From Reinekea forsetii (GTDB lineage Bacteria; Pseudomonadota; Gammaproteobacteria; Pseudomonadales; Natronospirillaceae), in the NCBI RefSeq assembly GCF_002795845.1, contig NZ_CP011797.1, positions 2,379,501-2,443,500 of the forward strand: a stretch of 64,000 bases of DNA, written 5' to 3'. Made by a program: the position numbers and the translations under genes. Shown here one piece after another: positions 33,592-55,688 of the stretch (positions are counted from its first letter, which is position 1; each line of letters starts with the position of its first letter). The notes beneath the pieces are model-generated. The model had not been told where the DNA came from. It saw nothing but the letters and a program-made list of their open reading frames with translations, and made no database searches.

Positions 33592-35733
33592 CTAGGATTT
33601 AGGCTCGACGAGATCAATCGAACCGGCCTCAAAGCTCTGATGACGAGCGGCCGGTTTCAGTAGCGCACGAAAACCATTGCCTTGTGCCGATTGCACCTCA
33701 ATGGTCCAAAACAACTTCTGTGATAAGAGATTGTAGACTATATGCATACCCAAGCCGCTGCCGCCCTTGCCACGCGTAGTGGTGAAAAAGGGATCGAATA
33801 TCTGCTTTACAGTCGCTGCATTGGCGCCCTTACCGTTATCCTGAGTACTCAATTCAAATCCCGATCGGGTCTTCTTCAAACGCATCTCGATGGTACCGGC
33901 CAGCTCACCGTCATCGAAGCCATGGACTAAGGCATTCATAAACAGATTGGTCACCACCTGAGCAACCGCCCCAGGGTAGGTGTCGACCACAATGCCCGAC
34001 TCAAAGTCGGTTATGAGCTCAACCTGGGTGCCCTTCAACTGATGGCGCAAGCTAACCAAGACGCTGGTCAGGTAGTCACCCAAATCAAAGATTCGTTTTG
34101 CCTCGCCAGTTTGGTCAACCGACACCAACTTAAAGTTCGAAATAAGGTTGGCAGCCCGGCTTAAACTTTGAAAAATAATCTCGGCGTATTCGATCGCGTC
34201 GGTAAGGTAGGCGTCAAAGTTCGATCGGGTCATACTGTTGTTTGAAATTTGTGTCTGCAATGCATGGGTCGCCGTTAATAACGATGAGGCGGCTAACTTG
34301 CCGGTACCGATCGGCGTATTGATTTCGTGCGCTACGCCACTGACCAGACTGCCCAACGATGCCATGCGGGCGTTCATTTCATTGAGTTGACGATAATGCT
34401 CGCTAGTACGCACCAGCGCATCGGCGTGCAAAACCTCGGACAGCTGGACGCCGATAACCTCAATAAATTCGGCTGCATCCGGAGCACAGCTGGCCACCAT
34501 ATAGCCAAAGTGCTCGTCATCGAATTCCAGCGTACAGATTAAAGAGTAGTTGCCCGAACTAACGGGTTCTAAAAAGGACAGCGGGATCATCGGCTGAGCA
34601 TAGGGTGTGTTGGTGCCCTGCCCAGCCAAATTTATTTCGCTGAAAAACCGACTGCCATCTTCCGGATGGGTCAGCAAAAAAAGCGAAAGCTGATCAACTT
34701 CCAATTCCGCCAAGGGTGCCTTGGCGCTGACCATCACCTCTGCCAGTGGCACCTGCGCCTTTAACAGCCGCAACAGGTCGAGTTTGCGTGATTTATTATC
34801 CCGTTGATATATTAGCGCCCACTGCTCCGACAGGTTTTGATCGTGATTACTGACCGTAGGGGGCGAATTGTCGGTGGTTTCCCGAAAGACCGGCGCGCCT
34901 TTGACCACCCGGTCTACCAGCCGCTGACTAGGTTTGACCAGCAGTGCCAAGGCCTGCTCCCCAGCGAGCTTGCCCAAGGCTTTGGCTGGAAAGTGCACGG
35001 TGGTCAATCCCGGGAGCATGGCGGCGGCATATTCGAAATCATCGTAACCGGTCACCCAGCACTGTCCTGGGCATTCGATCCCGTGCGCCTTAAGACTGTC
35101 GAGCACACCCTTGGCGCTCAGATCGTTGCCGCACACTATGACATCGGCCCACGACCCGGCGGCGAGATAGGCGTCAATCAGGGTGCGCGCGGCAAAGGTG
35201 GTGAAATTACCGACCAGCACCTCAATGTCAGTGCTCGAACGACCGGACTCTTCGAAGGCGCGATACAAGGCGTGCTGACGAATCTGACTGTCGACATTGC
35301 CCACCGGCCCACTCAGATACAAAAACCGGGCGGTAGAGCGGCGTGCCACAATATCGACCATTAGCTCATACATGCCGTCGAAATTATCGACCAAGACATT
35401 GGCCACGTCGGGTACCGCGCTGCCGATATTTACGATTGGGATACCCTGATAGAGGGCGAGTATTTTTTCATAGCTGCCATTGCCCGACACATAACCTAAA
35501 CCGCCGCCATAACCGATCAACACCGACGGCTGCAGCGCTCGAAACTGATGATGGATCCAAAGACAGCGATCCAGTTGCGCCGCCGATTCCGGCAAATATT
35601 GCAGCGGCGCAAAGATGACCCTTATCGCTTGATCGGAAAATGCTTCGGCAATGCCGCTGCAGATGCGCTGCTCAATTGTATGAATAAAGGTTGGAACCAA
35701 TACCAAGGCTATTTTATCGGTCAAGGAAAACAC
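33592..35733 (-). CDS. Soluble histidine kinase with LacI-type ligand-binding domain
   Basis: A 713-residue protein without signal peptide or membrane segments. Residues 1 to ~285 form a LacI/periplasmic-binding-protein fold (ADVIVCGNDLSAKGVLDSLKAHGI, CWVTGYDDFEYAAAMLPGLTTV) but lack a helix-turn-helix. A GAF-like middle region follows (~310-455). The C-terminal kinase has H469 in SLVSGVAHEINTPIGTG, the N-box NLFMNALVHGF, DNGKGANAATVKQIFDPFF and GGSGLGMHIVYNL. It has no receiver domain and no response regulator next door. Starts are GTG at 35733 or TTG at 35724, which has GAGG eight bases upstream. It probably senses a cytoplasmic sugar, nucleoside or similar ligand, but ligand and target are unknown. 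Confidence 0.88.
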   Translation of the reverse strand: MFSLTDKIALVLVPTFIHTIEQRICSGIAEAFSDQAIRVIFAPLQYLPESAAQLDRCLWIHHQFRALQPSVLIGYGGGLGYVSGNGSYEKILALYQGIPIVNIGSAVPDVANVLVDNFDGMYELMVDIVARRSTARFLYLSGPVGNVDSQIRQHALYRAFEESGRSSTDIEVLVGNFTTFAARTLIDAYLAAGSWADVIVCGNDLSAKGVLDSLKAHGIECPGQCWVTGYDDFEYAAAMLPGLTTVHFPAKALGKLAGEQALALLVKPSQRLVDRVVKGAPVFRETTDNSPPTVSNHDQNLSEQWALIYQRDNKSRKLDLLRLLKAQVPLAEVMVSAKAPLAELEVDQLSLFLLTHPEDGSRFFSEINLAGQGTNTPYAQPMIPLSFLEPVSSGNYSLICTLEFDDEHFGYMVASCAPDAAEFIEVIGVQLSEVLHADALVRTSEHYRQLNEMNARMASLGSLVSGVAHEINTPIGTGKLAASSLLTATHALQTQISNNSMTRSNFDAYLTDAIEYAEIIFQSLSRAANLISNFKLVSVDQTGEAKRIFDLGDYLTSVLVSLRHQLKGTQVELITDFESGIVVDTYPGAVAQVVTNLFMNALVHGFDDGELAGTIEMRLKKTRSGFELSTQDNGKGANAATVKQIFDPFFTTTRGKGGSGLGMHIVYNLLSQKLFWTIEVQSAQGNGFRALLKPAARHQSFEAGSIDLVEPKS

Positions 35734-36084
35734 CTCATGGGTCGGGCTAAACTCTTGTCTTGATTGCTGACCGGCGCGGACCTAACACGCCGTTTAAAAA
35801 AACGGTGCTGATGAATTTCGCAGACAGCACCGATACTAATCTGAATACCCTAGACCATGATCGGCACAATGCGAGCATCGCCTGGCTTCTACCCTATAAA
35901 AATCGTCCTACGTTGCAGCAGACTTTGCCGCTTCTGAGGTGTGAGACTTTACTTGGGCGTTGGGGCCGACCAGACCTCGGTTGTTAATAACCCGGTAGCT
36001 TCCGCAACGGCTGGCGATGACCTGTTGTGCCCAAAGTACGGGCTGCGGGCTGAGATCATTAGCGTTCCGGGTTCGCTCCATCGG

Positions 36085-36099
36085 GCACCACTAAGGCCC
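36085..36099 (+). promoter_or_regulatory. NtrC-like enhancer site 1 of the nas operon
   Basis: GCACC-ACTAA-GGCCC compared with the NtrC consensus GCACC-N5-GGTGC: left half 5/5, right half 3/5. Its centre (36092) is about 139 bases upstream of the predicted sigma54 start at ~36231. Confidence 0.5.
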
Positions 36100-36115
36100 A
36101 ATACCACCCTATAAC

Positions 36116-36130
36116 GCCCATTAATAGTGC
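36116..36130 (+). promoter_or_regulatory. NtrC-like enhancer site 2 of the nas operon
   Basis: GCCCA-TTAAT-AGTGC compared with GCACC-N5-GGTGC: left 3/5, right 4/5. The centre (36123) is 31 bases from site 1 and about 108 bases upstream of the predicted start. The paired NtrC sites of E. coli glnA lie at about -140 and -108. Confidence 0.5.
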
Positions 36131-36204
36131 ATAAAACCGACCAGCTTAAACAAAACACAACGTCTGGGCGCCAGATACCCCCAGAGGAGCGACCTGAACA
36201 GAAC

Positions 36205-36220
36205 TGGCACGACCTTCGCT
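36205..36220 (+). promoter_or_regulatory. Sigma54 promoter of the nas operon
   Basis: TGGCAC-GACCT-TCGCT has the invariant GG and GC separated by ten bases and matches the TGGCAC-N5-TTGCW consensus except for one base (C for T in the -12 element). Transcription would start near 36231, giving a leader of about 113 bases before the first gene. Confidence 0.7.
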
Positions 36221-36232
36221 AAGTAATTTACT

Positions 36233-36330
36233 GCGCAACGTGGCCTTAGGTTTGGAGGCATGTTGCGCTTAGGTACGTTATTTTTGAATTGAGCATTGGC
36301 GCTCTTGGGTTTTCCCGAGGGCGTTTTTTT
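36233..36330 (+). promoter_or_regulatory. Attenuator leader of the nas operon (possible ANTAR/NasT target)
   Basis: The leader can form a hairpin with a 7-bp base GCGCAAC/GTTGCGC (36233-36239 with 36262-36268). It can form a small hairpin GAGC-ATTGGC-GCTC (36291-36304), or instead the terminator at 36299-36330, which uses the same bases 36299-36304. The small hairpin's six-base loop has A at position 1 and G at position 4, the feature recognised by ANTAR antiterminators such as NasR and NasT. A second matching loop (AACGTG at 36237-36242) has only a weak stem. Stabilising the small hairpin would prevent the terminator and let transcription enter the operon. Confidence 0.55.
36299..36330 (+). 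terminator. Intrinsic terminator in the nas leader
   Basis: GCGCTCTTGGG, loop TTTT and CCCGAGGGCGT form an 11-bp stem with G-U pairs, followed by seven T (36324-36330). No gene on this strand lies upstream, so it must act as a conditional (attenuating) terminator for the operon starting at 36344. Confidence 0.85.
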
Positions 36331-36343
36331 ATGGGTGTTATTT

Positions 36344-37564
36344 ATGTTTTCAGACCTGGCTAACAATCCTCCGGACGATACCTTGCTGATCATTGGTTTC
36401 GGCATGGCCACGGCGCGCCTGCTAAATCGCTTGGCCGATTTGGGCTACCCGGGTCCGATTTGCGTGGTCAGTCGCGAAAAAAATGTCGGCTACAATCGCA
36501 TTCAACTAACGCCTTGGTTGGCAAACCCGGAGGCCGATATTGACCTCAATCTGGTCAATGCAACAGTGCTGGCGCGGTTAAACATTCGCATCCTAGCCCA
36601 AACCGATGTGGTCTCCTTCAGCGCCGATTTACATCGGGTTCGGTTGAGTGATGGCAGCGAAATGCCATTCGCTCGCGCCGTAATAGCCACCGGATCTCAG
36701 CCTGTTCTACCGGAGTGCGACTTTAGGTCGCAACCGGCCATCCGCGCATTTCGTACCCTGGAGGATGGCTATTTCCTCAGGGCGCTGCCTGAGCAATCCC
36801 ATGTTGCGGTATTGGGCGGTGGCTTGCTCGGCCTAGAAGCAGCTTGGGGGCTTCGTCAACTCGGTCACCGGGTAACCCTGATCCACCGCAATAACCATTT
36901 ATTGAACCGTCAGCTCAGTGCGCCCTTGGCCGCGCTCTTGGCCAACAGCTTTGTTAAGGCCGGCATCACGTTGCGTCTGAAGCGCCAAATTCGCGCCATC
37001 GACAGCGACCCACGCTTGGCCAGCATCACCCTTGATAACGCTGAAGCCCTACCAGTCCATTGCCTGATCGCCGCGGCGGGCATCCGTCCCAATATCGACT
37101 TGGCTCAGCGCGCCGGGTTGGCCACAGGGCAAGGCATCCAGGTTAATGAGGCTCTGCAAACCTCTGCTGGCCATATTTTCGCGCTCGGTGAGTGCACCGA
37201 ATTTGCCGCTCAAACCTTCGGACTGGTGGCCCCAGTCTATGCCCAGGCCGAAGTATTGGCGCAGCGCCTGATGGGCGGGGCATCCGAGTTCGCGTTAACC
37301 CAGACCGATACCCGATTAAAGATTTCCGGCTTAGATGTTTTCTCAACCGGGCAGATCAATCACCCCAAAGCACAGGTACTCAGCCTGGTCGATCAGTACC
37401 AACAACGCGGCCGTACGCTGCATTTTCTCAACCATCGACTCATTGGTGCAGAGCTGTTGGGTGACCTCAGCCTGGCCAATTATTGTCAGGATTTAATTCA
37501 AACCAAACACCCCATCAGCGACCCCCGAGATGTGATCTTGGGTCGCTTGCAGAACGCTGCCTGA
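36344..37564 (+). CDS. FAD/NAD(P)-dependent oxidoreductase, assimilatory nitrate reductase electron-transfer subunit
   Basis: A 406-residue pyridine nucleotide-disulfide oxidoreductase-like protein: FAD motif TLLIIGFGMATARLL, NAD motif VAVLGGGLLGLEAAWGLRQLG and FAD-pyrophosphate segment AGHIFALGECTEF. It resembles the N-terminal part of NirB and rubredoxin reductases. At the head of a nirB-nirD-nasA operon it most likely passes electrons from NAD(P)H to the NasA nitrate reductase, like NasB/NasC. ATG at 36344 follows GGGTG. An in-frame TTG at 36296 lies inside the terminator stem and cannot be the start. Confidence 0.82.
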   Translation: MFSDLANNPPDDTLLIIGFGMATARLLNRLADLGYPGPICVVSREKNVGYNRIQLTPWLANPEADIDLNLVNATVLARLNIRILAQTDVVSFSADLHRVRLSDGSEMPFARAVIATGSQPVLPECDFRSQPAIRAFRTLEDGYFLRALPEQSHVAVLGGGLLGLEAAWGLRQLGHRVTLIHRNNHLLNRQLSAPLAALLANSFVKAGITLRLKRQIRAIDSDPRLASITLDNAEALPVHCLIAAAGIRPNIDLAQRAGLATGQGIQVNEALQTSAGHIFALGECTEFAAQTFGLVAPVYAQAEVLAQRLMGGASEFALTQTDTRLKISGLDVFSTGQINHPKAQVLSLVDQYQQRGRTLHFLNHRLIGAELLGDLSLANYCQDLIQTKHPISDPRDVILGRLQNAA

Positions 37565-37574
37565 GGATAAAACA

Positions 37575-40118
37575 ATGCACAGTACACAAAAGAAGAACCT
37601 GGTCATCATTGGCAATGGCATGGTCGGTCATCATTTTATCGCGCAGTGGCAGAAGCAGGCGGCCGCCGCCGGTTGGCAACTGCATATCATTGGCGCCGAA
37701 CAGCAATCGGCCTATGACCGAGTGCATCTGTCAGAATACTTCCAAGGTAAGGGTCACGCCGATCTGGCCTACTGCCAGGAAGACGATTACCGTGCCCTGG
37801 GCTACAAGACCTATTTGGGTGTAACCTGCACCGAGATCGATCGGGCCCAGCGGAGAGTGCAACTCGATAACGGGATGAGCCTAGACTACGATAAGTTGGT
37901 CTTGGCCACCGGCTCCTATCCCTTTGTGCCACCGATACCCGGCTACCAAAATGCGCGCAGCTTTGTCTACCGTACCCTGGACGATCTCGATGCGATTGCG
38001 CAGGCCGCGCAGGGTCGCTCCACTGGCGTGGTGATCGGTGGCGGTCTGCTCGGCCTGGAGGCGGCCAACGCCTTGAAATCCTTGGGCCTGAAAACCCATG
38101 TCATCGAGTTTGCCCCGCGTCTGATGCCGGTCCAGTTAGATGACCCGGCCGGTGCCCTGCTAAAAACAAAGATTGAACAAATCGGCGTGTCGGTTCATAC
38201 CCAGACCGGTACCCAGGCGATCGACGTCACCGACGACGATCGCCTGCGGCTCACCTTTGCCAGCGGTGAGCCGTTACTGACCGATGTGCTGGTATTTTCT
38301 GCCGGTATCCGCCCGCAGGATGCAGTCGGCGGTGCCTGTGGTTTGCAGGTTGGTGAGCGCGGCGGCATCGTGATCAACGATCACTGCCAAACATCCGATG
38401 CCGACATCTACGCCATTGGTGAGGTCGCGCTCTGGCAAGAGCGCATCTACGGACTTGTGGCACCCGGTTATCGCATGGCCGAAACCGCTGCACAGTCGAT
38501 CGCCGAGGTTGAGGTAAGCGCCTTTCTCGGCGCCGACATGAGCACCAAACTTAAGTTACTCGGGGTCGATGTTGGCTCCATTGGGGATGCCCACGGCCAG
38601 TTGCCGGGTGCCCTGTCCTTCCGTTACAGCAATGAGGCCAAGGGCGTTTACAAAAAGATCGTGACCACGGCCGATGGCAAGAAATTACTCGGTGCCATGT
38701 TAGTCGGTGATAACAGCGCGTACGACACCCTACTGCAATACCATCTCAATGATATTGACCTGCCCGCCGAACCCGATAGCCTAATCTTGCCCAACCTGGC
38801 CAGCAACGCGGCACCGGCGTTAAGGTTAGATGCCCTGCCAGACGGCGCGACCATCTGCTCGTGCCTCAATGTCAGTAAGGGCGATATCATCGCGGCCCTC
38901 GATGGCGGTTGTGCGTCGACGGCCGAGGTCAAGGGTGCGACCCAAGCCAGCACCGGTTGCGGCGGGTGCGCTGCCATGCTTAAGGAGGTTGTCGATAAGA
39001 CCTTGGCCGCGCGCGGCGTGGCGATTGACACCTCAATCTGTGAACATTTTTCGCACACTCGCCAGGAGCTCTATCACCTGGTGCAGATCCACGACCATCG
39101 CTCGTTCGATGCTCTGATCGCACAACATGGCACCGGCCTCGGCTGTGAAATCTGCAAACCCACGGTGTCGTCGATTCTGGCCAGTCTCTACAACGAGCCG
39201 GTGCTCGATCCGGCCCATGTCAAGTTACAGGATACCAACGATACCTTTCTCGCCAATATGCAAAAGGACGGCACCTACTCGATTGTGCCGCGTATCGCCG
39301 GTGGCGAAATCACCCCCGCAGGCCTGATCAAGATCGGCCAGTTGGCGCAGGAATTCAACCTCTATACCAAGATCACCGGCGGCCAACGGATCGATATGTT
39401 CGGGGCCCAGTTGCATGAACTGCCGCTGATCTGGCGTCAGTTGGTCGACGCCGGCTTTGAAACCGGACAGGCCTATGGCAAGTCGGTCCGCACGGTAAAA
39501 AGTTGTGTCGGTAGCACCTGGTGTCGATTTGGTGTTCAGGATGCCGTCAATATGGCGATCCTGATCGAGAATCGTTACAAGGGTTTGCGCGCACCCCATA
39601 AGCTGAAGTTCGCGGTCTCTGGCTGCACCCGCGAATGTGCCGAAGCACAGAGTAAGGATGTTGGCATTATTGCCACCGAAAACGGCTGGAATCTCTATGT
39701 CGGCGGCAATGGTGGGATGAAGCCACGCCATGCCGATCTGTTCGCGACCGATCTCAATGACGTCGAACTGATACAAACCATCGACCGCTTTTTGATGTTC
39801 TATATTCGCACCGCCGATCGGTTACAACGCACCGCCCGCTGGTTGGAAAACCTCGACGGCGGACTGGACTATCTCACCGAGGTTATCCTCAACGACTCAC
39901 TGGGTTTGGGCGATGATTTGCAAGCGCAGATGCATCGCATCGTGGCCACCTTTGAATGTGAATGGACCTCAACCCTGAACGACCCAGAGAAACTCAAACG
40001 CTTTCGGACCTTTGTAAACAGCGACGCGCATGACAGCAATATCGTCTTTGTCGAGGAGCGCGCTCAAAAACGGCCCGCAACCGACGCTGAAAAAATATCA
40101 CTGATCGCCACGAGCTGA
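37575..40118 (+). CDS. nirB: Assimilatory nitrite reductase [NAD(P)H] large subunit
   Basis: NirB reduces nitrite to ammonium with NAD(P)H in the cytosol. The 847-residue protein has an FAD/NAD domain (VIIGNGMVGHHF, GVVIGGGLLGLEAANAL) and a BFD-like [2Fe-2S] region (ICSCLNVSKGDII and STGCGGCAAMLKEV). A second cysteine pair GLGCEICKP follows, then the sirohaem/[4Fe-4S] domain with KSCVGSTWCRFGV and VSGCTRECAEAQSKDVG. All four cluster cysteines are present. ATG at 37575 with GAGGATAAAAC upstream, 10 bases after the preceding gene. Second gene of the nas operon. Confidence 0.96.
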   Translation: MHSTQKKNLVIIGNGMVGHHFIAQWQKQAAAAGWQLHIIGAEQQSAYDRVHLSEYFQGKGHADLAYCQEDDYRALGYKTYLGVTCTEIDRAQRRVQLDNGMSLDYDKLVLATGSYPFVPPIPGYQNARSFVYRTLDDLDAIAQAAQGRSTGVVIGGGLLGLEAANALKSLGLKTHVIEFAPRLMPVQLDDPAGALLKTKIEQIGVSVHTQTGTQAIDVTDDDRLRLTFASGEPLLTDVLVFSAGIRPQDAVGGACGLQVGERGGIVINDHCQTSDADIYAIGEVALWQERIYGLVAPGYRMAETAAQSIAEVEVSAFLGADMSTKLKLLGVDVGSIGDAHGQLPGALSFRYSNEAKGVYKKIVTTADGKKLLGAMLVGDNSAYDTLLQYHLNDIDLPAEPDSLILPNLASNAAPALRLDALPDGATICSCLNVSKGDIIAALDGGCASTAEVKGATQASTGCGGCAAMLKEVVDKTLAARGVAIDTSICEHFSHTRQELYHLVQIHDHRSFDALIAQHGTGLGCEICKPTVSSILASLYNEPVLDPAHVKLQDTNDTFLANMQKDGTYSIVPRIAGGEITPAGLIKIGQLAQEFNLYTKITGGQRIDMFGAQLHELPLIWRQLVDAGFETGQAYGKSVRTVKSCVGSTWCRFGVQDAVNMAILIENRYKGLRAPHKLKFAVSGCTRECAEAQSKDVGIIATENGWNLYVGGNGGMKPRHADLFATDLNDVELIQTIDRFLMFYIRTADRLQRTARWLENLDGGLDYLTEVILNDSLGLGDDLQAQMHRIVATFECEWTSTLNDPEKLKRFRTFVNSDAHDSNIVFVEERAQKRPATDAEKISLIATS

Positions 40119-40149: not shown

Positions 40150-40491
40150 ATGACCACGATAGACAATAAAGAATGGCTACTGGCCTGCACGAAGGCCGAC
40201 TTGGTGGCCCAGTCCGGCGTTGCCATATTGGTTAAAAATCAGCAAGTTGCGTTATTTTATTTGCCGGAAAACGACACCATCTATGCCTTGAGTAACTACT
40301 GTCCGTTCAGCCGGGCCAATGTTATCGCACGCGGTATTATCGGCGATCTCAAGGGCCAGCTGGTCGTGGCCAGTCCGATCTATAAACAACATTTTTGCTT
40401 GCTCAGCGGGGCCTGTCTTGAAGACAGTCAGGTTGCCTTGAACGTCTATGACGTAAAGGTTCAAGACGACCTTATTCAGATTGCCCTCTAA
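40150..40491 (+). CDS. nirD: Nitrite reductase small subunit
   Basis: NirD is the Rieske-fold partner of NirB. The 113-residue product has the family layout (ILVKNQQVALFYLPENDTIYALSNYCPFSRANVIARGIIGD, with later KQHFCLLSGACLED). As in most bacterial NirD the full Rieske Cys-His ligand set is not present, so it is probably structural or assembles the complex rather than carrying a cluster. ATG at 40150 follows GAGGAGAAATACC, 31 bases after nirB. Confidence 0.92.
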   Translation: MTTIDNKEWLLACTKADLVAQSGVAILVKNQQVALFYLPENDTIYALSNYCPFSRANVIARGIIGDLKGQLVVASPIYKQHFCLLSGACLEDSQVALNVYDVKVQDDLIQIAL

Positions 40492-40506: not shown

Positions 40507-43182
40507 ATGAACCAGACTGGCCTAAAAACAACCTGCGCCTATTGTGGCGTCGGCTGCGGTGTCACGGTGCCGACCGAAAACGACCGTCGGGTCAACGTCA
40601 GTGGCGATGCACAGCACCCGGCCAATAGGGGGCGGTTGTGCGTTAAGGGTACCCATCTGGGGGATGTCTTACCGCTTAAGGATCGCTTGCTGGTACCCAG
40701 CGTGCACGGCGAACCGGTCAGTTGGGATCTGGCCAGCCAGACCATCGCCGATAAGATCCGCCAGGCCCAGGCCCAGTATGGTGCCAACTCGGTGGCCTTT
40801 TATCTCTCCGGCCAACTGCTCACCGAAGACTATTACGCCGCCAATAAGCTGGCCAAGGGTTTTTTAGGCACCGCCAATGTCGACACCAACTCGCGTCTCT
40901 GCATGGCGTCGGCGGTGGCCGCACACGTGCGCGCCTTCGGTGAGGATGCCCCGCCCAGTTGCTATGAGGATGTGGAAATCGCCGACCTGGTGGTGGTGAC
41001 CGGATCCAACTTGGCGTGGGCCCATCCGGTTTTGTTTCAACGTTTGCAAGCCGCCCGCGCCGAGCAGCCGAGTAAAAAAATGGTGGTTATCGATCCCCGC
41101 AAGACCGCCACCGCCCTGGAAGCGGACCTGCACTTGGCGATCAAACCCGGCGCCGATGGCCAGTTGTTTAATGCCTTGTTGGTCTATCTGGATAAGCATC
41201 AGGCCTGCGCTAGGGAGTACATCGCCGAGCACGTCAGCGGTTATGCACAAACCCTGGCCGCGGCGACATTGGATGTGGGTACCGATAGCCGCATCCAGGC
41301 GGAATTGTGCGGCCTACCCGAAGCGGATCTGTTGGCATTCTTTGCCCTGTTCGCCCAAACCCCTAAAACCACTACCCTATGGTCGATGGGCATCAATCAG
41401 TCGGAGTCTGGGGTCGATAAAAGCAACGCCATTATTAATGTTCATCTGGCCACCGGCCGCATCGGTCAACCCGGTGCCAGCGCCTTCTCGATCACCGGTC
41501 AGCCCAACGCCATGGGCGGTCGGGAGGTTGGGGGCCTGGCCAACCAGTTGGCCATCCACCGCGGTTTCGATGCCGACAGCATTGCCCAGGTCGGCGCCTT
41601 TTGGCAGGCCAGCCATATGGCCCAAAAGCCCGGCCTCAAAGCCGTGGATCTGTTCGATGCCTGCCTGGCCGGTGACATCAAGGTGTTATGGATTATGGCC
41701 ACCAACCCGGTGGCCAGCCTGCCCGACGCCAATAAGATTCGCGCCGCCTTGGCCCAGGTCGAGACGTTGATCGTCTCCGAAGTCGTGCAGTCGACCGATA
41801 CGCTCGACTGTGCCGATATTCGCCTACCGGCCCTAGCCTGGGGTGAAAAGGACGGCACGGTGACCAACTCCGAGCGCACCATTTCCCGTCAACGGCCCTT
41901 CTTAATAGCCCCAGGCCAAGCCCGGGCCGACTGGTGGGCGCTCGCCACGGTGGCAAAAAAACTGGGTTTCAGCGACGCCTTTGCTTGGCACCATGCCCAT
42001 GAAATCTTTCGTGAACACGCCCGACTCAGTCGCCTCAATCGCGCCACCGCGCTGAGCTTTGACCTGTCGGCCGTGGCCGACCTGAGCCTGGCCGAATACC
42101 AAGATTGGTTGCCCCAACAGTGGCCCCTTGATGGCACAACTCGAACACCCCGGCTGTTTGGCGATGGCCAATTCCCGAGCCACGACGGTCGCGCCCAAAT
42201 GGTGCCGATCAGTCCGATCTCGGTCGACCAACCGGACGGCGGGGACTATATTTTAAACACCGGTCGCCTGCGCGATCAGTGGCATACCATGGCCCGCACC
42301 GGCTATGCCATGGCGTTAAACCAACACAGCCCGCAGTTTGAACTGCATATCCACCCGAACGATGCCGAGCACAATGCCATCGTCAATGGAGACCTGGTTG
42401 CGGTCCGCTCCGATCTGGGCAGCTTTTACGCCCTGGCCCGGATCGACGCCGCACAGCAGCCATCGGAGCTGTTCGCGGCCATGCATTGGAACCGCCAGTT
42501 CGCCAGCCACGGTGGCGTCGCCAATGTGATTGCCAGCCGAGTCGATCCTATTTCCGGCCAGCCGGCCAGCAAGCACGCCCGGGTACAGCTGGCCAAACAA
42601 ACCAGCCAGGCCAACGGTTTTCTCTTTATCGGCGACGGTCAACCCGCACCGGATTGGCTCAACGAGCTGCTATGGTTTAAGACCCACACGCGCCAAGGTA
42701 CCCTGTACCGGTTTTTTAGCCTGCAGCAATCTCTGGCCGACTTTATAGCATTGCGCAGTCAGGACGGCACACCCTGCACGATGAGCCTGACCGACAGCAG
42801 TCAACAATCGGCGCAATGGATTGGCCAGGACGCTGGCGGCTTGCAGTTTTGGCTCAGTATCCATCGCGCAGCCACGCCATGGCCCGACAGCCTATTTCTC
42901 GATCGAGCCGCCGAACAGCCAAACCCAGGGCTGAGCCTCAATGCCCTATTGACCGGACAGCAGGACGATGCCCCGATCCGTGGCAAGATCGTCTGTACCT
43001 GTTTCTCGGTATCGGACAGCCAAATCACCGACTTCTTGCAGAGCCATGCGCAAGCGAGTTTGAGCACACTGCAAACGGCCCTCTGTTGCGGTACCAATTG
43101 CGGCAGCTGCCTGACCGAGGTCAAGACGCTGGTGAAGGACAAGGCGAGCGCCCAAACGGCATCGGCAGACGCGCTCTGCTAA
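40507..43182 (+). CDS. nasA: Assimilatory nitrate reductase catalytic subunit
   Basis: Molybdenum enzyme that reduces nitrate to nitrite in the cytosol. The 891-residue protein begins with a [4Fe-4S] motif CAYCGVGCGV, has the Mo-bis-MGD domains with the likely Mo-ligand cysteine in SRLCMASAVAAH, and a molybdopterin dinucleotide domain from about 570 (NTGRLRDQWHTM). The C-terminus has a BFD-like [2Fe-2S] domain (IVCTCFSVSDSQITDFL and CCGTNCGSCLTEV), as in Klebsiella NasA. There is no TAT signal, which separates it from NapA. ATG at 40507 with AAGAGAT upstream. Last gene of the operon. No nitrate transporter or NasS/NasT gene accompanies it here. Confidence 0.95.
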   Translation: MNQTGLKTTCAYCGVGCGVTVPTENDRRVNVSGDAQHPANRGRLCVKGTHLGDVLPLKDRLLVPSVHGEPVSWDLASQTIADKIRQAQAQYGANSVAFYLSGQLLTEDYYAANKLAKGFLGTANVDTNSRLCMASAVAAHVRAFGEDAPPSCYEDVEIADLVVVTGSNLAWAHPVLFQRLQAARAEQPSKKMVVIDPRKTATALEADLHLAIKPGADGQLFNALLVYLDKHQACAREYIAEHVSGYAQTLAAATLDVGTDSRIQAELCGLPEADLLAFFALFAQTPKTTTLWSMGINQSESGVDKSNAIINVHLATGRIGQPGASAFSITGQPNAMGGREVGGLANQLAIHRGFDADSIAQVGAFWQASHMAQKPGLKAVDLFDACLAGDIKVLWIMATNPVASLPDANKIRAALAQVETLIVSEVVQSTDTLDCADIRLPALAWGEKDGTVTNSERTISRQRPFLIAPGQARADWWALATVAKKLGFSDAFAWHHAHEIFREHARLSRLNRATALSFDLSAVADLSLAEYQDWLPQQWPLDGTTRTPRLFGDGQFPSHDGRAQMVPISPISVDQPDGGDYILNTGRLRDQWHTMARTGYAMALNQHSPQFELHIHPNDAEHNAIVNGDLVAVRSDLGSFYALARIDAAQQPSELFAAMHWNRQFASHGGVANVIASRVDPISGQPASKHARVQLAKQTSQANGFLFIGDGQPAPDWLNELLWFKTHTRQGTLYRFFSLQQSLADFIALRSQDGTPCTMSLTDSSQQSAQWIGQDAGGLQFWLSIHRAATPWPDSLFLDRAAEQPNPGLSLNALLTGQQDDAPIRGKIVCTCFSVSDSQITDFLQSHAQASLSTLQTALCCGTNCGSCLTEVKTLVKDKASAQTASADALC

Positions 43183-49115: not shown

Positions 49116-49718
49116 CTACTCCCAACCGGGGACGCCGCTCATATCGGGCAGGTGATGGGCAATGCCCTTGTGGCAGTCGATACAGGTCTTATCGCCGCTG
49201 GCCAAGGCTGTGCTGTGTTGGTTCGAGGCACGTTCGCTTTGGCGGGTAAAGTCCATCGCAGCGAACTCGTGACAGTTGCGGCATTCCAATGAGTCGTTGG
49301 CTTTAAAGCGCGCCCATTCATGCTCGGCCAACTCACGGCGCTTGGCCTCAAACTTCTCCCGCGTGTTAATAGTACCAAAGACCTTACCCCAGACTTCTTT
49401 AGAGGCCTGGATCTTACGCGCGATCTTGTAGGTCCATTCGTGCGGCACATGGCAATCGGAACAAGTCGCGCGGACGCCGGAACGGTTTGAGAAGTGGATG
49501 GTTTCTTGTAATTCAACATAGACATTGGTGCGCATCTCATGACAGCTGATGCAGAATGCTTCGGTATTGGCCGCTTCGAGTGCGGTATTAAAACCACCCC
49601 AGAAGATAATCCCGGCGACAAAACCGCCCAGGGTTAAAAAGCCCAAGGAATAATGGCTGGCTGGCCGTGCCAAAACCCGCCAGCTGGAAATTAATAGAGA
49701 CATAAAGCGGCTCCACAT
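49116..49718 (-). CDS. napC: Cytochrome c-type protein NapC
   Basis: NapC is the membrane-anchored tetrahaem quinol dehydrogenase that feeds electrons to NapB and NapA. The 200-residue protein has one N-terminal membrane segment (about 22-45) and four haem-binding motifs CISCH, CSDCH, CRNCH and CIDCH, with distal ligands expected in the NapC/NirT pattern. ATG at 49718 with AAGGAGAAGTAT upstream. Longer in-frame extensions overlap napB and are not conserved. Last gene of napEFDABC. Confidence 0.95.
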
Positions 49719-49728
49719 ATACTTCTCC

Positions 49729-50181
49729 TTAATGGCTGGCGCCGGCTTTGAGAAACAGTTCATCCATGCTGATAAAGTCGTTTTCAATAAGCAGCTTGAC
49801 CGACTGTTGTGAGGCATGGCATTGGGTACAAAAATAGCGATTGGGCGATACATCGGCGAGAAAATTACCATCTCGATTCATAAAGTGAGTCACCGATATC
49901 ATCGGTGCCTGCGAGTCGGCGACGCGCAAACGGTTATGACAGGACAGGCATTTATTCACCTTTAAATCGATCTGATAACCGGCGATCTTATGCGGTATGG
50001 TCGGTGCCGCCATCGGATAATCCCGCACCCGACGCTGGTCGTTATTTATTTCGTCGGCCATGGCCGGCGGCTGCGCAGTGTCGAGTAGCTCCGCTGAGCC
50101 GCGCAGGGTGGCGACCTGATTATCAGCCTGGGCAAGACTCAATAGGACCAGCAGACTACAGAGGGCGAATCGTTTTTTCAT
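49729..50181 (-). CDS. napB: Periplasmic nitrate reductase small subunit, dihaem cytochrome c NapB
   Basis: NapB is the soluble dihaem cytochrome that passes electrons from NapC to NapA. The 150-residue protein has a signal peptide ([15 protein letters not shown]) and two haem motifs CLSCH and CTQCH, with the family's [20 protein letters not shown] and [11 protein letters not shown] contexts. ATG at 50181 with GGAGATCCCA upstream, 9 bases after napA. Confidence 0.95.
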
Positions 50182-50190
50182 TGGGATCTC

Positions 50191-52686
50191 CTATACCTTA
50201 GCCACTTTGACAGCACATTTTTTATAGTCAGTCTGTTTGGAAATCGGATCCATGGCATCCAAGGTGCACTTATTAATCAGCTGACTGGCATCGAACCAGG
50301 GCACGAAGATCAAGCCTACGGGCGGTTTATTGCGGCCACGCGTTTCCACTCGGGTGCGGATTTCGCCCCGCCGAGACGCCACGCGAATTTCATCACCGCG
50401 CCGCAGGCCGCGACTGCGAGCGTCGTCTGGGTGCATATAGCAGAGTGCATCGGGCAGGGCGTTATACAACTCCGGCACACGCTGGGTCATCGAACCGGAG
50501 TGCCAATGCTCGAGCACGCGGCCGGTCGATAACCAGAGATCGTATTCGGCATCGGGGCTTTCTGCTGGTGGCTCATAGGGCAGCGCAAAGATAATCGCCC
50601 GGCCGTCTGACTTACCATAAAACTGCACGCCTCGACCCGGCTCAACATAGGGGTCATAGCCTTCGCGAAAACGCCATTGGGTTTCCTTGCCCGCCACCAC
50701 CGGCCAACGCAGGCCGCGTTCTTCGTGGTAGCGATCGAAGGGGGCCAGGTCGTGACCGTGACCGCGCCCGAACTCGGCGTATTCTTCAAACAGGCCCTTC
50801 TGCACATAAAAACCGAAGGCGTCGGCCTCATCATTGGCGTATTTTTTGTCGACCTCATCCAGGCCAAAACGGTCAACTGTGCCATTGCGAAACAGCACAT
50901 CGAACATCGACCGGTCCTTGTAGTCTGGATTCGCCGCCAGCAGCTCGGCCGGCCAAACGTCTTCCATGGTGAAGCGCTTGGCGAACTCCATAAGTTGCCA
51001 TAGATCGGAGCGTGCTTCGCCCGGTGCTTGGGTCAACTGGTGCCAGAATTGGGTGCGCCGTTCGGCGTTGCCATAGGCGCCCTCCTTTTCCACCCACATG
51101 GCGGTCGGCAAAATCAAGTCTGCCGCCTCACAGGTCACGGTTGGATAAGCATCGGAGACCACGATAAAGTTTTCCGGATTACGGTAACCGGGATAGGTTT
51201 CCTCCATCATGTTGGCGGCCGCCTGCATGTTATTGTTCACCTGGACCCAGTAGCAATTGATCTTACTGTCCTTAAGATGGCGGTTTTGCAGCGCGGCGTG
51301 GGCACCCACCTTGGACGGCACAGTGCCTTCCGGCAGGCGCCATATTTTTTCGGCCCGCAGGCGGTGGGCTGGGTTAGTCACGACCAGGTCTGCGGGCAGA
51401 CGATGGGCGAAGGTGCCCACTTCACGCGCCGTGCCGCAGGCCGAGGGTTGCCCGGTCAGGGAAAAGGGGCTGTTGCCCGGTGCGGATATTTTGCCGGTGA
51501 GCAGGTGCAGGTTGTAGATCATATTGTTCATCCACACTCCTCGAGTGTGCTGATTAACGCCCATGGTCCAGAGAGACATCACCTTGGTCTTCGGATCGGC
51601 ATAGATGTCGGCCAAGGCGCGCAAGGCCGGTTCCGAGACGCCCGATTCCTTGGCGGCATAGGCCAGGGTATAGGGCTTAACAAACGCCGCGTAGGCTTTA
51701 AAATCGATGCTTTCAGAGTCGTTCGCCGTGGCGGCGTTTTTCGCCTGCTGCTCCAATGGGTGCTCCGGCCGCAGGCCATAGCCAATATCGTCGGTGCCCT
51801 TGCGGAAGTTAACGTGCTTGGCAACAAAGTCCTTATTGACTCTATCATTCTCAATAAGGTAATTGGCCAAGGCATTAGCGATGATCAGATCGGTTTGCGA
51901 TTTGAACACCATCGGGATATCGGCCAGATCAAAACTGCGATGTTGGTAAGTCGACATCACCACCACCTTGACATGAGGATGCGAGAGCCGACGATCGGTA
52001 ATGCGGGTCCACAGAATTGGATGCATTTCGGCCATATTCGAGCCCCATAAGACAAAGGCATCGGCGTGTTCGAAGTCGTCATAGCAGCCCATCGGTTCAT
52101 CGATGCCGAAGGTGCGCATAAAGCCGGCCACGGCCGAGGCCATACAGTGGCGCGCATTGGGATCGAGATTATTGCTGCGGAAACCGGCTTTCATCAGCTT
52201 GACCGCCGCGTAGCCCTCCCAGACGGTCCATTGACCCGAACCGAACATGCCAATGGCCTCAGGACCCTTGGTCTTGAGTGTGGCTTTCCATTTCTCGGCC
52301 ATAGCATCGAACGCCTCATCCCAAGACACTGGCGTAAATTCACCGTTCTTGTCATACACGCCATTGGTTTTGCGTAACAGCGGTTGGGTCAAGCGATCGC
52401 GGCCATAGATGATTTTGGCGAGAAAATAGCCCTTGATGCAATTAAGACCCCGGTTCACCGGTGACAGTTGATCGCCATGGGTGGCGACCACCTTGCCGGC
52501 CTTGGTACCGACCGAGACCGAACAGCCGGTGCCACAAAAACGACAGGGTGCCTTATCCCATTGGATTTGATTTTCCGCACTGCTGGTGATCAGGTTGGTG
52601 GCCTGGACGGGCATCGATAAGCCCGCAACTGAGGCGGCTACGGCCGCGGCTTGCGCCTTAATGACGTCACGGCGGGTCAGCTTCAT
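50191..52686 (-). CDS. napA: Periplasmic nitrate reductase catalytic subunit NapA
   Basis: Molybdoenzyme that reduces nitrate in the periplasm. The 831-residue protein has a TAT signal ([19 protein letters not shown]), a [4Fe-4S] motif [10 protein letters not shown], the Mo-ligand cysteine in [17 protein letters not shown], and the NapA markers [22 protein letters not shown] and [19 protein letters not shown]. It has the normal length. The start ATG overlaps the napD stop by four bases. NapD, encoded just before, is its dedicated TAT proof-reading chaperone. It depends on Mo cofactor, for which moeA is encoded 4 kb away. Confidence 0.97.
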
Positions 52687-53045
52687 AGGGTGCTCCTAGC
52701 GATAATCTGGGCTGGGTCGGGGTCGGCTTTACCGAGTATCAGACTCGACATTTCAATTTCCTGATTGAGGTACTCAGACGCTTCGGTATGGTGTGCCACC
52801 AGGGTCGCGCTGAGCACGCCCTCGATAGTCTGCAGCGCCTCGATTTGCTGCATCACCTGACGGGCGGTCGGCGCACCGATGACCAGTACATACTTGCCCA
52901 GTTCGTCCTGTACCACGCGTTCAACACCCGCCAGGGTGTCCATGGCCAGCTCAATCGCCAGACGATGCTCTGGCCGGCCGTGCAGGATTACGCTGACTAT
53001 GTGTTCTTCATCCTTGCCGGTATTCAGGGCTACTGCGTTTCTCAT
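52683..53045 (-). CDS. napD: NapA maturation chaperone NapD
   Basis: NapD binds the TAT signal of NapA and holds back export until the cofactor is inserted. The 120-residue product has the ferredoxin-like fold motifs [15 protein letters not shown] and [34 protein letters not shown]-type blocks (about residues 50-85), and ends with a variable tail. ATG at 53045. The stop overlaps the napA start. It lies 12 bases after napF. Confidence 0.92.
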
Positions 53046-53057
53046 CGGGGTTGCATC

Positions 53058-53603
53058 CTATCGGTTCGAGCCCGCTGCAGAGGTCTCCAGCGGATTAATG
53101 AACAAGCTGTTGACCGGGCAGACCGACACGCATTCGCCACAGGCCACACAGACGTCGGGGTTAAACACCGGTTGCGGTGTGGTCAGCGTGATCGGAAACT
53201 CGATAGCCTGGAGATCACAGGCATCCTTACAGGCCTGACAGGTCACGCCCTGATTGGCCAGACAGTCACCACTCACGCTGACCTGCCCCATCGGCCAGGC
53301 CGGTGCTCCGGGCTGCAAGGCCTGTGGCTGGCAGGCACTGATACAGTCGCCACATCCGGTGCACCCGGCGGCGGAGAAATTTAGCTCCGGAAAACCACCG
53401 TCGCCGCGCACGATGATCTGGCTCGGGCAGGCCCTAAGGCAGGCTTCGCAGCGGCTGCACAGGTCGATAAAGTCGGCCTCCGCCCGGGCGCCGGGCGGAC
53501 GGCAGGGCACGAGCGATGCTGTCCGGCCGGGGTGCAGCAGGCGTTTAAACAGGCCGCGGCGCGCGGCATTGGTGGGCAAGTAAGCTGACGGCGCCACCCT
53601 CAA
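53058..53603 (-). CDS. napF: Ferredoxin-type protein NapF
   Basis: NapF is a cytosolic iron-sulfur protein that acts on NapA before export. The ~181-residue protein has the AARRGLFKRLL N-terminal stretch seen in NapF and four cysteine clusters: CSRCEACLRACP, CTGCGDCISACQ, CQACKDACD and CVACGECVSVCP. These fit up to four [4Fe-4S] clusters, though the third is shorter. The start is uncertain. TTG at 53603 overlaps the napE stop as TTGA, and GTG at 53597 and TTG at 53579 are alternatives. Second gene of the nap operon. Confidence 0.9.
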   Translation of the reverse strand: MRVAPSAYLPTNAARRGLFKRLLHPGRTASLVPCRPPGARAEADFIDLCSRCEACLRACPSQIIVRGDGGFPELNFSAAGCTGCGDCISACQPQALQPGAPAWPMGQVSVSGDCLANQGVTCQACKDACDLQAIEFPITLTTPQPVFNPDVCVACGECVSVCPVNSLFINPLETSAAGSNR

Positions 53604-53752
53604 TAGGTGCTCGGACCGAGTAACAGCTGCGACATCCAGATGGCCAACCCGTAACCGCCCACCAGAACAATGGTCATAAAGGGAAACAAAAACACCGTTA
53701 TAAATAGGAAGGCTCGGCGCTCATGCTTTTTTTCGGTCGGTTGTTGAGCCAT
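53600..53752 (-). CDS. napE: Small membrane protein NapE
   Basis: A 50-residue frame that begins MAQQPTEKKHERRAFLFI, followed by one membrane segment (TVFLFPFMTIVLVGGYGLAIW) and the tail MSQLLLGPSTY. The length, the charged N-terminus, the FPFMTIVLVGGYG core and the position ahead of napF identify NapE, a nap-operon membrane protein of unknown role found in Pseudomonas and Paracoccus. ATG at 53752 has GGAG upstream. Its TGA overlaps the TTG candidate start of napF. Confidence 0.88.
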   Translation of the reverse strand: MAQQPTEKKHERRAFLFITVFLFPFMTIVLVGGYGLAIWMSQLLLGPSTY

Positions 53753-53773
53753 CGATCGCGCTCCATTGTGTTG

Positions 53774-53821
53774 CTGGGTCTGGGTCTGGGTCTGGGTCTG
53801 GGTCTGGGTCTGGGTCTGGGT
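53774..53821. repeat. Eight-copy CTGGGT hexanucleotide tandem repeat
   Basis: Eight perfect copies of CTGGGT (ACCCAG on the nap coding strand), with a further partial copy to 53825. The array ends 21 bases before the napE ATG and lies downstream of the predicted nap promoter, so it should be in the nap 5' untranslated region. Perfect short repeats of this kind change copy number by replication slippage. Confidence 0.9.
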
Positions 53822-53843
53822 CTGGACGGGTCTTGCTTACAGC

Positions 53844-53849
53844 ATTAGG
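53844..53849 (-). promoter_or_regulatory. Candidate -10 element of the nap promoter
   Basis: On the minus strand CCTAAT matches TATAAT at 4/6. Its position fits a start near 53837. This puts the NarP-like site at about -45 and the FNR-like site at about -66, close to -44.5 and -64.5 at E. coli napF. No clear -35 is present, as expected for an activator-dependent promoter. Confidence 0.4.
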
Positions 53850-53874
53850 GTAAATCAGTTTCGGCACATAGGCG

Positions 53875-53890
53875 TACCTTGCTGGAGGTA
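53875..53890. promoter_or_regulatory. NarP/NarL-like 7-2-7 site
   Basis: TACCTTG-CT-GGAGGTA is an inverted heptamer pair with a 2-base spacer. Compared with TACYYMT-N2-AKRRGTA the left half scores 5/7 and the right half 6/7. It lies between napE and the nitrate sensor gene, 21 bases from the FNR-like site. Confidence 0.55.
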
Positions 53891-53896
53891 TAGCTG

Positions 53897-53910
53897 TTGT
53901 TCTATATCAA
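53897..53910. promoter_or_regulatory. FNR-like site between nap and narQ
   Basis: TTGTT-CTAT-ATCAA matches the FNR consensus TTGAT-N4-ATCAA at 9/10. It would make the nap operon, and perhaps the divergent sensor-regulator genes, responsive to oxygen limitation through FNR/ANR. Confidence 0.65.
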
Positions 53911-53960
53911 GCAAAGGACATTTCTAGTAATAACGGCTTAATTTGGCGTAAACTGTTGAA

Positions 53961-55688
53961 ATGGTCAGATTAGCCCGTTACCCCATCGCCAGGTCGTTAA
54001 GTCTGAGTCTTTCTTTAGTGATCGTCCTGGTAAGTATCTCGTTTTTGTTGGATATCCGCCTCACCACCGGCCTGTCCGGTGACGCTGCGGCCATCAATCA
54101 CGCAGGGTCGATGCGCATGCAGTCGTACCGGCTGGCCTATGCCATCGAAAAAGAGACCCCACTATCCGAACGGGAGAAGTTGATTAACGAATTTGCGTCT
54201 AATCTGAATGCGCCGACATTGGCCCGCCGGATAGCGACCGCTCAACTTGCGCTGCAGGCACAGTTTGCCCTTGTGCAACGCGATTTTCAGACCATGAAAG
54301 GGTTCGCTTTGAACGACCCGCCTGCATATCTTCGGGCAGTAGACGACTTTGTCGGTGAACTCGATCAGCTGGTTAAGCTGATAGTACTGAGGAGCGTAAG
54401 CAAGCTTAGTCTGTTACGCCGACTACAAATTATGATCTATACGATCGCCCTATTATCCGGCATCGGCTTCACGCTATTATTGTTCAAACAGGTTATTTCA
54501 CCCTTCCGGCATCTTGTGACTGCAGTGGAAAAACTCGGTCAAGGCGACGATTGGGATGATCTCAATTTTCGCGGTGATGGCGAATTCGCTGAACTGTCCC
54601 AAGCCTTTAACAGGATGGCGCAGAAAGCGACCGCCACTCAGCTAACCCTGGAGTACAGAATTCACCAGCAGACCGAGGCCGTAAAGCGAAATAATAGGGC
54701 GTTAGAATTACTCTTCAATCTGAGTCAGACCCTGAATACTGAGCACCCGTCCATTGAGGTTTTTAAGAACAAGGCCGCGGCCGACTTGCAAAGTCTTTTT
54801 GGCGAGAAGTCGATCTACTGGACCACCCTCAAGGTGAACAAGGGCGCCAACAGGGTAGTTTTCACGTGTGCAACCGATGACTCACAGCTGGTCTGTATAA
54901 CCTTAAGTCCGCTTGCGTCCTGGCAATACCAGACGCTGGATACGGTTACGGCTCTGTTTGATATCGCCCTCAATCGTATCGGTGCCCAAAAGAGCGAAAA
55001 CAGAATCGCGCTACTCAATGAACGCTCATCCATGGCCCGAGAATTACACGATTCGCTTGCCCAGTCCCTGAGTTACCTCAAGATACAGGTTGCTCGTTGG
55101 CTAGCGTTACGCGAGCGCGGTGCCGAAATGACGAGTTTGGATGCTATCGCTATTGAGCTGCGCGATGGGCTCAGTACCACCTATCGTAAACTCAGGGAAC
55201 TGTTAGTGACCTTTCGCAGTACATCCGGTGAGCTGGGGCTGGTACCCTCGATCACCGCGGCTGTTGCTGAGGTCAACCGCCTTGGCCACCGTACGAGCGT
55301 GCACCTTCATATAGATGATAATTGGCCGGAAGACCTTTCCCCTAGCCAGGAAATTCATTGCCTGCATATTGTTCGCGAAGCAATGAGCAATACCTTAAAA
55401 CATGCTCAGGCCAATAATGCAGTGGTATCGTTACAGAATAGGCTGACTTTTCTGGAGATCTCCATTACCGATGATGGCGTCGGCTTTGGCGACACGCTGG
55501 CCGAAATGGGTCAGTTTGGGCTACAAATTATGACCGAACGGGCCTTACGTATCGGTGGCCGCATCGAATACCAGACTCTGCAGGCGGGTGGCGCCAGCGT
55601 ACTATTATGCTTCAATGCACAACCCGACAACCAAGGGTCATTGCTTATTGAGCCCTACCCGATTGAACACGGAGAACCGCCCTTGTGA
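53961..55688 (+). CDS. narQ: Nitrate/nitrite sensor histidine kinase (NarQ/NarX-like)
   Basis: A 575-residue membrane kinase. An N-terminal membrane segment (about 10-33) is followed by a periplasmic helical domain with the nitrate-binding P-box INHAGSMRMQSYRLA. Then come a second membrane segment (about 155-177), HAMP, a GAF-like region, and a HisKA_3/HATPase core with H363 in MARELHDSLAQSLSYLKIQV, an N-box REAMSNTLKHAQ and DDGVGFG. The NarX-type cysteine cluster between HAMP and kinase is missing, which favours NarQ. ATG at 53961. It is divergent from nap and overlaps the regulator gene by four bases. Confidence 0.88.
   Translation: MVRLARYPIARSLSLSLSLVIVLVSISFLLDIRLTTGLSGDAAAINHAGSMRMQSYRLAYAIEKETPLSEREKLINEFASNLNAPTLARRIATAQLALQAQFALVQRDFQTMKGFALNDPPAYLRAVDDFVGELDQLVKLIVLRSVSKLSLLRRLQIMIYTIALLSGIGFTLLLFKQVISPFRHLVTAVEKLGQGDDWDDLNFRGDGEFAELSQAFNRMAQKATATQLTLEYRIHQQTEAVKRNNRALELLFNLSQTLNTEHPSIEVFKNKAAADLQSLFGEKSIYWTTLKVNKGANRVVFTCATDDSQLVCITLSPLASWQYQTLDTVTALFDIALNRIGAQKSENRIALLNERSSMARELHDSLAQSLSYLKIQVARWLALRERGAEMTSLDAIAIELRDGLSTTYRKLRELLVTFRSTSGELGLVPSITAAVAEVNRLGHRTSVHLHIDDNWPEDLSPSQEIHCLHIVREAMSNTLKHAQANNAVVSLQNRLTFLEISITDDGVGFGDTLAEMGQFGLQIMTERALRIGGRIEYQTLQAGGASVLLCFNAQPDNQGSLLIEPYPIEHGEPPL

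Follow-up and report, generated by a model that had tools for sequence, protein, structure and literature searches.

Organization of the locus

Within the window, by which we mean the whole stretch of 64,000 nucleotides of Reinekea forsetii DNA analyzed here, a structured leader lies directly upstream of nirBD and nas genes on the plus strand, the arrangement expected of a leader of the NalA type. The first gene (36344-37564) encodes an FAD/NAD(P)-dependent oxidoreductase recognized by the Pfam family Pyr_redox_2. Its best NCBIfam match is to the N-terminal half of NirB, below the cut-off, and the protein would be an electron-transfer subunit of the NasC/NirB kind. Then come nirB (37575-40118), encoding the large subunit of nitrite reductase, with TIGR02374 and NF011565 both over their cut-offs, and nirD (40150-40491), encoding the small subunit, with TIGR02378 over its cut-off. 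The gene at 40507-43182 corresponds by Pfam to a molybdopterin assimilatory nitrate reductase of the NasA type with a C-terminal BFD-like [2Fe-2S] domain; in NCBIfam, models of formate dehydrogenase and of assimilatory nitrate reductase match it, all below cut-off, and the name nasA is taken from the context. A search for a NarK-type porter gave nothing except a match below cut-off, and no similar DNA was found in plasmids. Elsewhere in the window (49116-56326) there is a napFDABC-like periplasmic nitrate reductase cluster on the minus strand, and a NarX/NarL-like two-component pair is divergent from it; these names were taken by eye from the translations.

Upstream of the leader is a sigma54-type promoter, CTGGCACGACCTTCGC (36204-36219, plus strand), and the GG/GC spacing of its -24/-12 element places the predicted +1 near 36231. 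This agrees with the start originally proposed, the element preceding the leader and not following 36330. Its TGGCAC and the GC of the -12 region are invariant across seven aligned leaders, that of the window included, and the genome encodes an NtrC-type protein that scores over its curated cut-off; such an element and NtrC would be expected of the NalA type, the start itself being a prediction. No sigma70-type site was found within 35700-36500. The nearest gene upstream (33592-35733) is on the minus strand, in keeping with the claim that no gene precedes the terminator. This gene is divergent to the operon and encodes a LacI-like periplasmic-binding-type domain fused to a histidine kinase. 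In genome G005 a protein with a similar start is encoded at the equivalent place (locus L220, 2534-4657, minus strand).

The leader RNA (36231-36345) folds with a z-score of -5.1, and none of 200 shuffled sequences was equally stable. At the 5' end a strong hairpin (36233-36268, plus strand, -20.2 kcal/mol) occupies the position usual for P1, the first hairpin of an ANTAR target, and lacks a hexaloop with A at position 1 and G at position 4 (A1/G4). A linker of 22 nt (36269-36290, plus strand) connects it to P2 (36291-36304, plus strand), the hairpin GAGC-AUUGGC-GCUC, which has a 4-bp stem and the hexaloop AUUGGC (36295-36300), with A1 at 36295 and G4 at 36298. We assign P2 as the putative ANTAR-type antiterminator hairpin from its sequence, conservation and energy, and from modeling of the growing transcript. 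It is followed by an intrinsic terminator (36300-36330, plus strand) that is exclusive with P2, having a stem formed by 36300-36309 and 36314-36323, a UUUU loop and a run of seven U at 36324-36330. The end of the terminator lies 14 nt before the ATG (36344) of the first gene.

P2 competes with the terminator

The original prediction placed before the first gene a terminator with an 11-bp stem and seven U, with which the GAGC-AUUGGC-GCUC hairpin would compete through bases 36299-36304. The terminator, the U7 and the competing A1/G4 hairpin are all present. The stem has 10 pairs (a terminator scanner counts 12 by including two closing G-U pairs), and the shared bases are 36300-36304. A strict script found one such terminator on the plus strand of the 64-kb window and none on the minus strand, and it is this one that the A1/G4 hairpin overlaps. 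An A1/G4 hexaloop on a stem of at least 3 bp that overlaps the 5' arm of a terminator is what defines P2 of an ANTAR target in the available part of PMC3369931, and all of these features are found here.

Considered as isolated hairpins, P2 has an energy of -4.0 kcal/mol compared with -16.8 kcal/mol for the terminator. When the growing transcript is folded, the probability of the closing pair of P2 is 0.91 for an RNA ending at 36304 and 0.26-0.80 for ends between 36308 and 36320, and it becomes 0.00 once the 3' arm of the terminator has emerged (RNA end 36323). In these folding models P2 would thus form first and then be displaced by the completed terminator, so that the architecture favors termination unless P2 is held.

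The putative regulator

The genome, a single contig of 3.66 Mb, contains exactly one match to the ANTAR domain (76.3 bits, the cut-off being 27.3), and an ANTAR protein is thus available to such a leader. It lies in a protein of 187 residues comprising a receiver-like domain, for which the match is below the Pfam cut-off, and the ANTAR domain. Adjoining its gene is that of an NMT1_2 protein of 369 residues, of the NasS type. NCBIfam names neither protein, and the names NasT and NasS are therefore given from domain content and neighborhood; with that reading of the names, the nasS and nasT pair of the NalA type is present. An ANTAR-type regulator that might be NasR or NasT had been anticipated. 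Such a regulator is indeed encoded, beside a NasS-like partner, and as the sole ANTAR match in the genome is of the NasT type, NasR would not seem to be the regulator here. A search for the NIT domain in this genome gave no match, with the controls equally silent.

The closest relatives of solved structure are 1s8n (a putative antiterminator), 6wsh and 6ww6 (a response regulator) and 4akk (the nitrate regulatory protein NasR). We take the 6wsh and 6ww6 entries to be EutV. Among the RNA contacts of EutV given in the available part of PMC8934654, R142, K143, K149, E160, M172, N173 and R177 are kept by aligned position in the NasT-like protein, and three are changed, K147 to R, Y164 to F and R175 to N.

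Conservation of the leader

The P2 pattern followed by a T-run is found in 11 of 22 genomes of the family, at one site in each, and a reversed-pattern control gave no match in any of the 22. A longer or somewhat altered form occurs in three further genomes (G011, G012 and G001). In relatives whose neighborhoods were read, and in other bacteria, P2 and the terminator precede nas or nir genes. The conservation of P2 that the original prediction needed is therefore borne out by both the alignment and the pattern scan. All 14 leader-bearing genomes of the family encode an ANTAR protein, and the five of 22 that have no ANTAR match (G007, G010, G013, G014 and G015) also lack the pattern. G004, G006 and G008 encode an ANTAR protein and have no pattern match; the leaders of G006 and G008 have other hexaloop sequences beside a terminator.

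A scan of public genomes with the pattern gave at least 120 matches at at least 119 loci. Among the matches listed, genes of the nas, nir or NasS/NrtA-like kinds lie downstream in 69 of 120, and an ANTAR protein is encoded in 30 of the 31 genomes searched that carry a nitrate-linked leader outside the family. The other 51 of the 120 listed, many from Firmicutes, Actinobacteria and Spirochaetes, have no nas/nir-like genes downstream (L075, L089, L092, L096, L104, L106, L120, L124, L130 and others). Possibly these belong to ANTAR regulons of other functions. Locus L120 carries two copies of the pattern.

A search of the window against Rfam gave no match at gathering. At a loose threshold only Spot 42 (E = 0.2) and 5.8S rRNA (E = 9.4) appeared, a result that is silent on ANTAR membership.

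The first hexaloop is missing

According to the portion of PMC3369931 available, the classical ANTAR target has two hexaloops. Among the matches listed, 63 of 127 distinct leaders have an A1/G4 hexaloop with at least four pairs no more than 75 nt upstream of P2; loops with five alternative pairs of letters in these positions occur in 5 to 14 of the 127. We have also forced every A1/G4 hexaloop that the predicted transcript allows, taking 90 nt upstream where no sigma54 site was recognized and counting near-identical leaders separately in the P1 tallies. By this measure a hexaloop of -6 kcal/mol or better lies upstream of P2 in 53 of the 65 leaders that are nitrate-linked and from outside the family, again among the matches listed (L079, L085, L102 and L185 were left out of the 65, being from the same genomes as the family set), and in just one of 14 leaders of the window's own family, the exception being G011. 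The figure of 53 is a low estimate, since L095 was scored as having no P1 from a wrongly picked promoter when a 6-bp A1/G4 P1 is present, and the A1 rule misses L164 and L179. In L164, L179 and L216 (G006) the first hexaloops begin with G and keep G4, suggesting that the A1 rule for P1 is not strict.

In the nine leaders from Reinekea and Saccharospirillum, that of the window among them, the best forced A1/G4 hexaloop reaches -2.8 kcal/mol at most, and at the other extreme there is no candidate. Other letter combinations give stable hairpins in the nine leaders, and it is therefore the recognition loop that is missing and not structure as such. Within -500 to +100 of the reference point no A1/G4 hexaloop with at least five pairs was found in eight of the nine, and the ninth, L008, has one at -463. 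No second, upstream A1/G4 hexaloop of the kind that PMC3369931 describes was found in the window leader, nor is there a linker between two hexaloops, the 5' hairpin ending 22 nt before P2. Strictly defined, the leader is therefore not a full member of the dual-hexaloop class of ANTAR targets. The remark in the original prediction that the usual second ANTAR hairpin is weak, with the strong hairpin of 36233-36268 in its place, is true here and holds in the nine leaders.

The sequences thus give good support to a leader variant lacking P1, and leaders of this kind look like single-hexaloop ANTAR antiterminators, which would be unexpected under current models. On balance we favor, by a modest degree, a single-hexaloop ANTAR lineage in which P1 was lost or has no room, where a 5' hairpin and a linker of 19-22 nt would stand instead, and whose readers would be of both NasT and NasR type.

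The strongest competing explanation is that the leader is a classical dual-hexaloop one, with P1 a weak or non-canonical loop such as AACGUG, or a loop formed only with the protein. We regard this as unlikely, though deserving serious consideration. AACGUG (36237-36242) is the best forced A1/G4 hexaloop of the window leader and has A1, G4 and a C-G closing pair. The published models demand two hexaloops (in the available parts of PMC3369931 and PMC8934654), and the G-for-A1 loops of L164, L179 and G006 indicate that the rules for P1 are looser than A1/G4. However, the AACGUG hairpin reaches only -1.1 kcal/mol when forced, and it lies inside the 5' hairpin, with whose -20 kcal/mol it must compete. 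The other eight leaders have no A1/G4 hexaloop better than -2.8 kcal/mol and none at a common place. Moreover, the predicted start is just 19 nt before P2 in L027 (genome G001) and 11 nt before P2 in L181, which leaves no room for a first hexaloop. The ANTAR proteins of these last two are open frames of 431 and 427 residues, respectively, NasR-like by length only.

The hairpin in the position of P1

Returning to the single-hexaloop reading, we have asked what stands in the position of P1. In all nine leaders a hairpin starts no more than 4 nt from the predicted transcript start and ends 19-22 nt before P2. These hairpins are of four outer-stem types, with apical loops of 3-7 nt that have no common sequence; their folding z-scores lie between -1.1 and -3.2, and three of the nine hairpins are not clearly better than shuffled sequences (36-45 of 300 shuffles being as good). 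In eight of the nine leaders, with either type of regulator, the stretch directly before P2 is the same, ACACTGTGATTTGCGTATC, and it has diverged in the window. A minimal hairpin within the conserved linker of the relatives, GAT-TTGCGT-ATC, is a poor candidate for a substitute P1 and was discarded, as it has no A1/G4 and is unstable in the folds; by eye, its equivalent in the window has two pairs.

In genomes G009 and G016 the sole ANTAR match is a NIT-ANTAR protein of the NasR type, and the remaining genomes of the nine leaders have a NasT-type protein. The leaders L028 and L221 (G009) and L025 (G016) are near-identical to L004-L008 and L032, with the same linker and P2, and the regulators are of different types. 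Comparison of G009 and G016 with their sister genomes is suggestive of a sensor swap on a kept RNA.

Tyr164 of EutV stacks on loop base G4. At this position Phe or His is found in 15 of the 22 genomes scored as lacking P1 and in 4 of the 24 scored as bearing it (Fisher p = 0.0008, uncorrected for kinship and with exceptions on both sides), and p = 0.0008 is also obtained when two doubtful Microbulbifer genomes are moved. The proteins compared were those of L002 (8789-9352) and L192-L256, and second ANTAR proteins of several genomes were left out. Loss of P1 might possibly be tied to replacement of Tyr164, which we offer as a lead only.

Relation to known systems

Romeo et al. in 2012 reportedly dealt with the NalA leader of the Pseudomonas nirBD operon and its NasT-NasS control. 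In the accessible part of PMC12830290 that leader is associated with sigma54, NtrC, NasS and NasT. By description (PMC12830290 and PMC3973561, in the parts available) the present leader resembles it in having a sigma54-type promoter, with NtrC encoded in the genome, a leader terminator and nirBD downstream, and in the proposed antitermination by NasT once nitrate or nitrite has released it from NasS. The present operon differs in adding the upstream FAD oxidoreductase and nasA in one unit. ANTAR-controlled antitermination of the NalA/nirBD type is our best reading of the locus.

The nasF leader of Klebsiella oxytoca, the target of NasR, shares the A1/G4 hexaloop, the C-G closing pair, the overlap with a terminator and the nas genes, as far as the available portions of PMC7496416 and PMC3369931 describe it. 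There, however, two hexaloops are read by a one-component NIT-ANTAR protein, compared with one hexaloop and a NasS-NasT pair here. In the eut system of Enterococcus faecalis an ANTAR hexaloop is likewise exclusive with a terminator, and the RNA-contact residues of EutV are largely shared; in contrast to the present leader, both hexaloops and a short linker are needed and EutV is activated by phosphorylation (PMC8934654, in part). The nasA leader of Paracoccus denitrificans is similar by description in its NasS-NasT control via leader hairpins, of which there are two, HI and HII, that have been mutated in that organism (PMC3795266 and PMC5424462, in part). Nitrate dissociates the Paracoccus NasS-NasT complex, and NasT binds the nasA leader (PMC3795266, in part).

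In the available parts of PMC3369931 and PMC8934654, antitermination by EutV needs both hexaloops and their spacing. The linker between ANTAR hexaloops is 5-12 nt in eut, and in actinobacteria it spans 2-25 nt (PMC8164766). The affinity of NasR for P2 by itself is roughly 12-fold below that for P1P2 (about 12 compared with 1 μM; PMC7496416, in part). The accessible text of PMC8934654 explains the need for two hexaloops by a recruitment hairpin that hands the protein to the antiterminator hairpin, foresees single-hexaloop sites where there is no transcription time limit, and leaves open whether single hexaloops work. Leaders of the window's type would be single-hexaloop sites at which the time limit is present. 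No description of a single-hexaloop leader was found in the literature searched, which covered few subscription papers and had the original nasF and 2012 Pseudomonas reports outside it. Natural leaders with a terminator and a nitrate operon and without P1 make the question of the single hexaloop directly testable by existing assays, and they are a caution that a search relying on two hexaloops will overlook genuine ANTAR targets.

A proposed mechanism and its alternatives

Very probably, in our view, the leader acts as an attenuator that makes transcription of the nas/nir operon responsive to nitrate or nitrite, with NasT reading one hexaloop. When nitrogen is scarce, NtrC and sigma54 RNA polymerase would start the transcript near 36231, as the promoter sequence suggests. 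Without nitrate, NasS would hold NasT, by analogy with the NasS-NasT literature; with NasT held, the terminator would displace the weak P2 as in the structural modeling, and transcription would stop after about 100 nt. With nitrate or nitrite present NasT would be released from NasS, as the same literature leads us to expect, and the ANTAR domain of the freed protein would bind the P2 hexaloop (A36295 and G36298) as P2 leaves the polymerase. The domain would hold 36300-36304, so that the terminator could not form. The 5' hairpin and the 19-22-nt linker might serve as a spacer, as protection of the RNA 5' end or as a docking surface. Given the published need for two hexaloops and the roughly 12-fold weaker affinity for P2 alone, a leader with one hexaloop might work only weakly or rely on a second, hidden contact. 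The nitrate/nitrite-controlled ANTAR antitermination put forward in the original prediction is thus supported by the anatomy of the leader, the modeled exclusivity of its hairpins, the regulator and the conservation.

It is improbable, in our judgment, that termination serves to make a small RNA of about 100 nt, like NalA or Spot 42, with control of the operon secondary. In Pseudomonas the terminated leader is, by description, a small RNA, NalA (PMC12830290 and PMC3973561, in part), and the Rfam Spot 42 model (RF00021) matches weakly at 20.8 bits (E = 0.2), which nevertheless falls far short of the 80 bits needed for gathering. Leader and operon adjoin, with 14 nt from the end of the terminator to the ATG, and an accumulating leader RNA would in any case be compatible with attenuation.

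Finally, an unregulated terminator or pause overlapped by an A1/G4 hairpin through chance is scarcely credible: short hairpins are common and near-matches to P2 in the genome itself are numerous, but the exact hairpin is joined to a terminator in those 11 of 22 family genomes with none in the control, and its pattern precedes nitrate genes in 69 of 120 of the matches listed from other genomes. About one copy of the P2 14-mer with up to two mismatches is expected per window, and the genome contains 377 such near-copies (181 forward and 196 reverse), with 152 for the reversed-pattern control, an excess from which we draw no conclusion. One copy with a single mismatch (50498-50511, minus strand) lies inside the napA coding sequence and was set aside.
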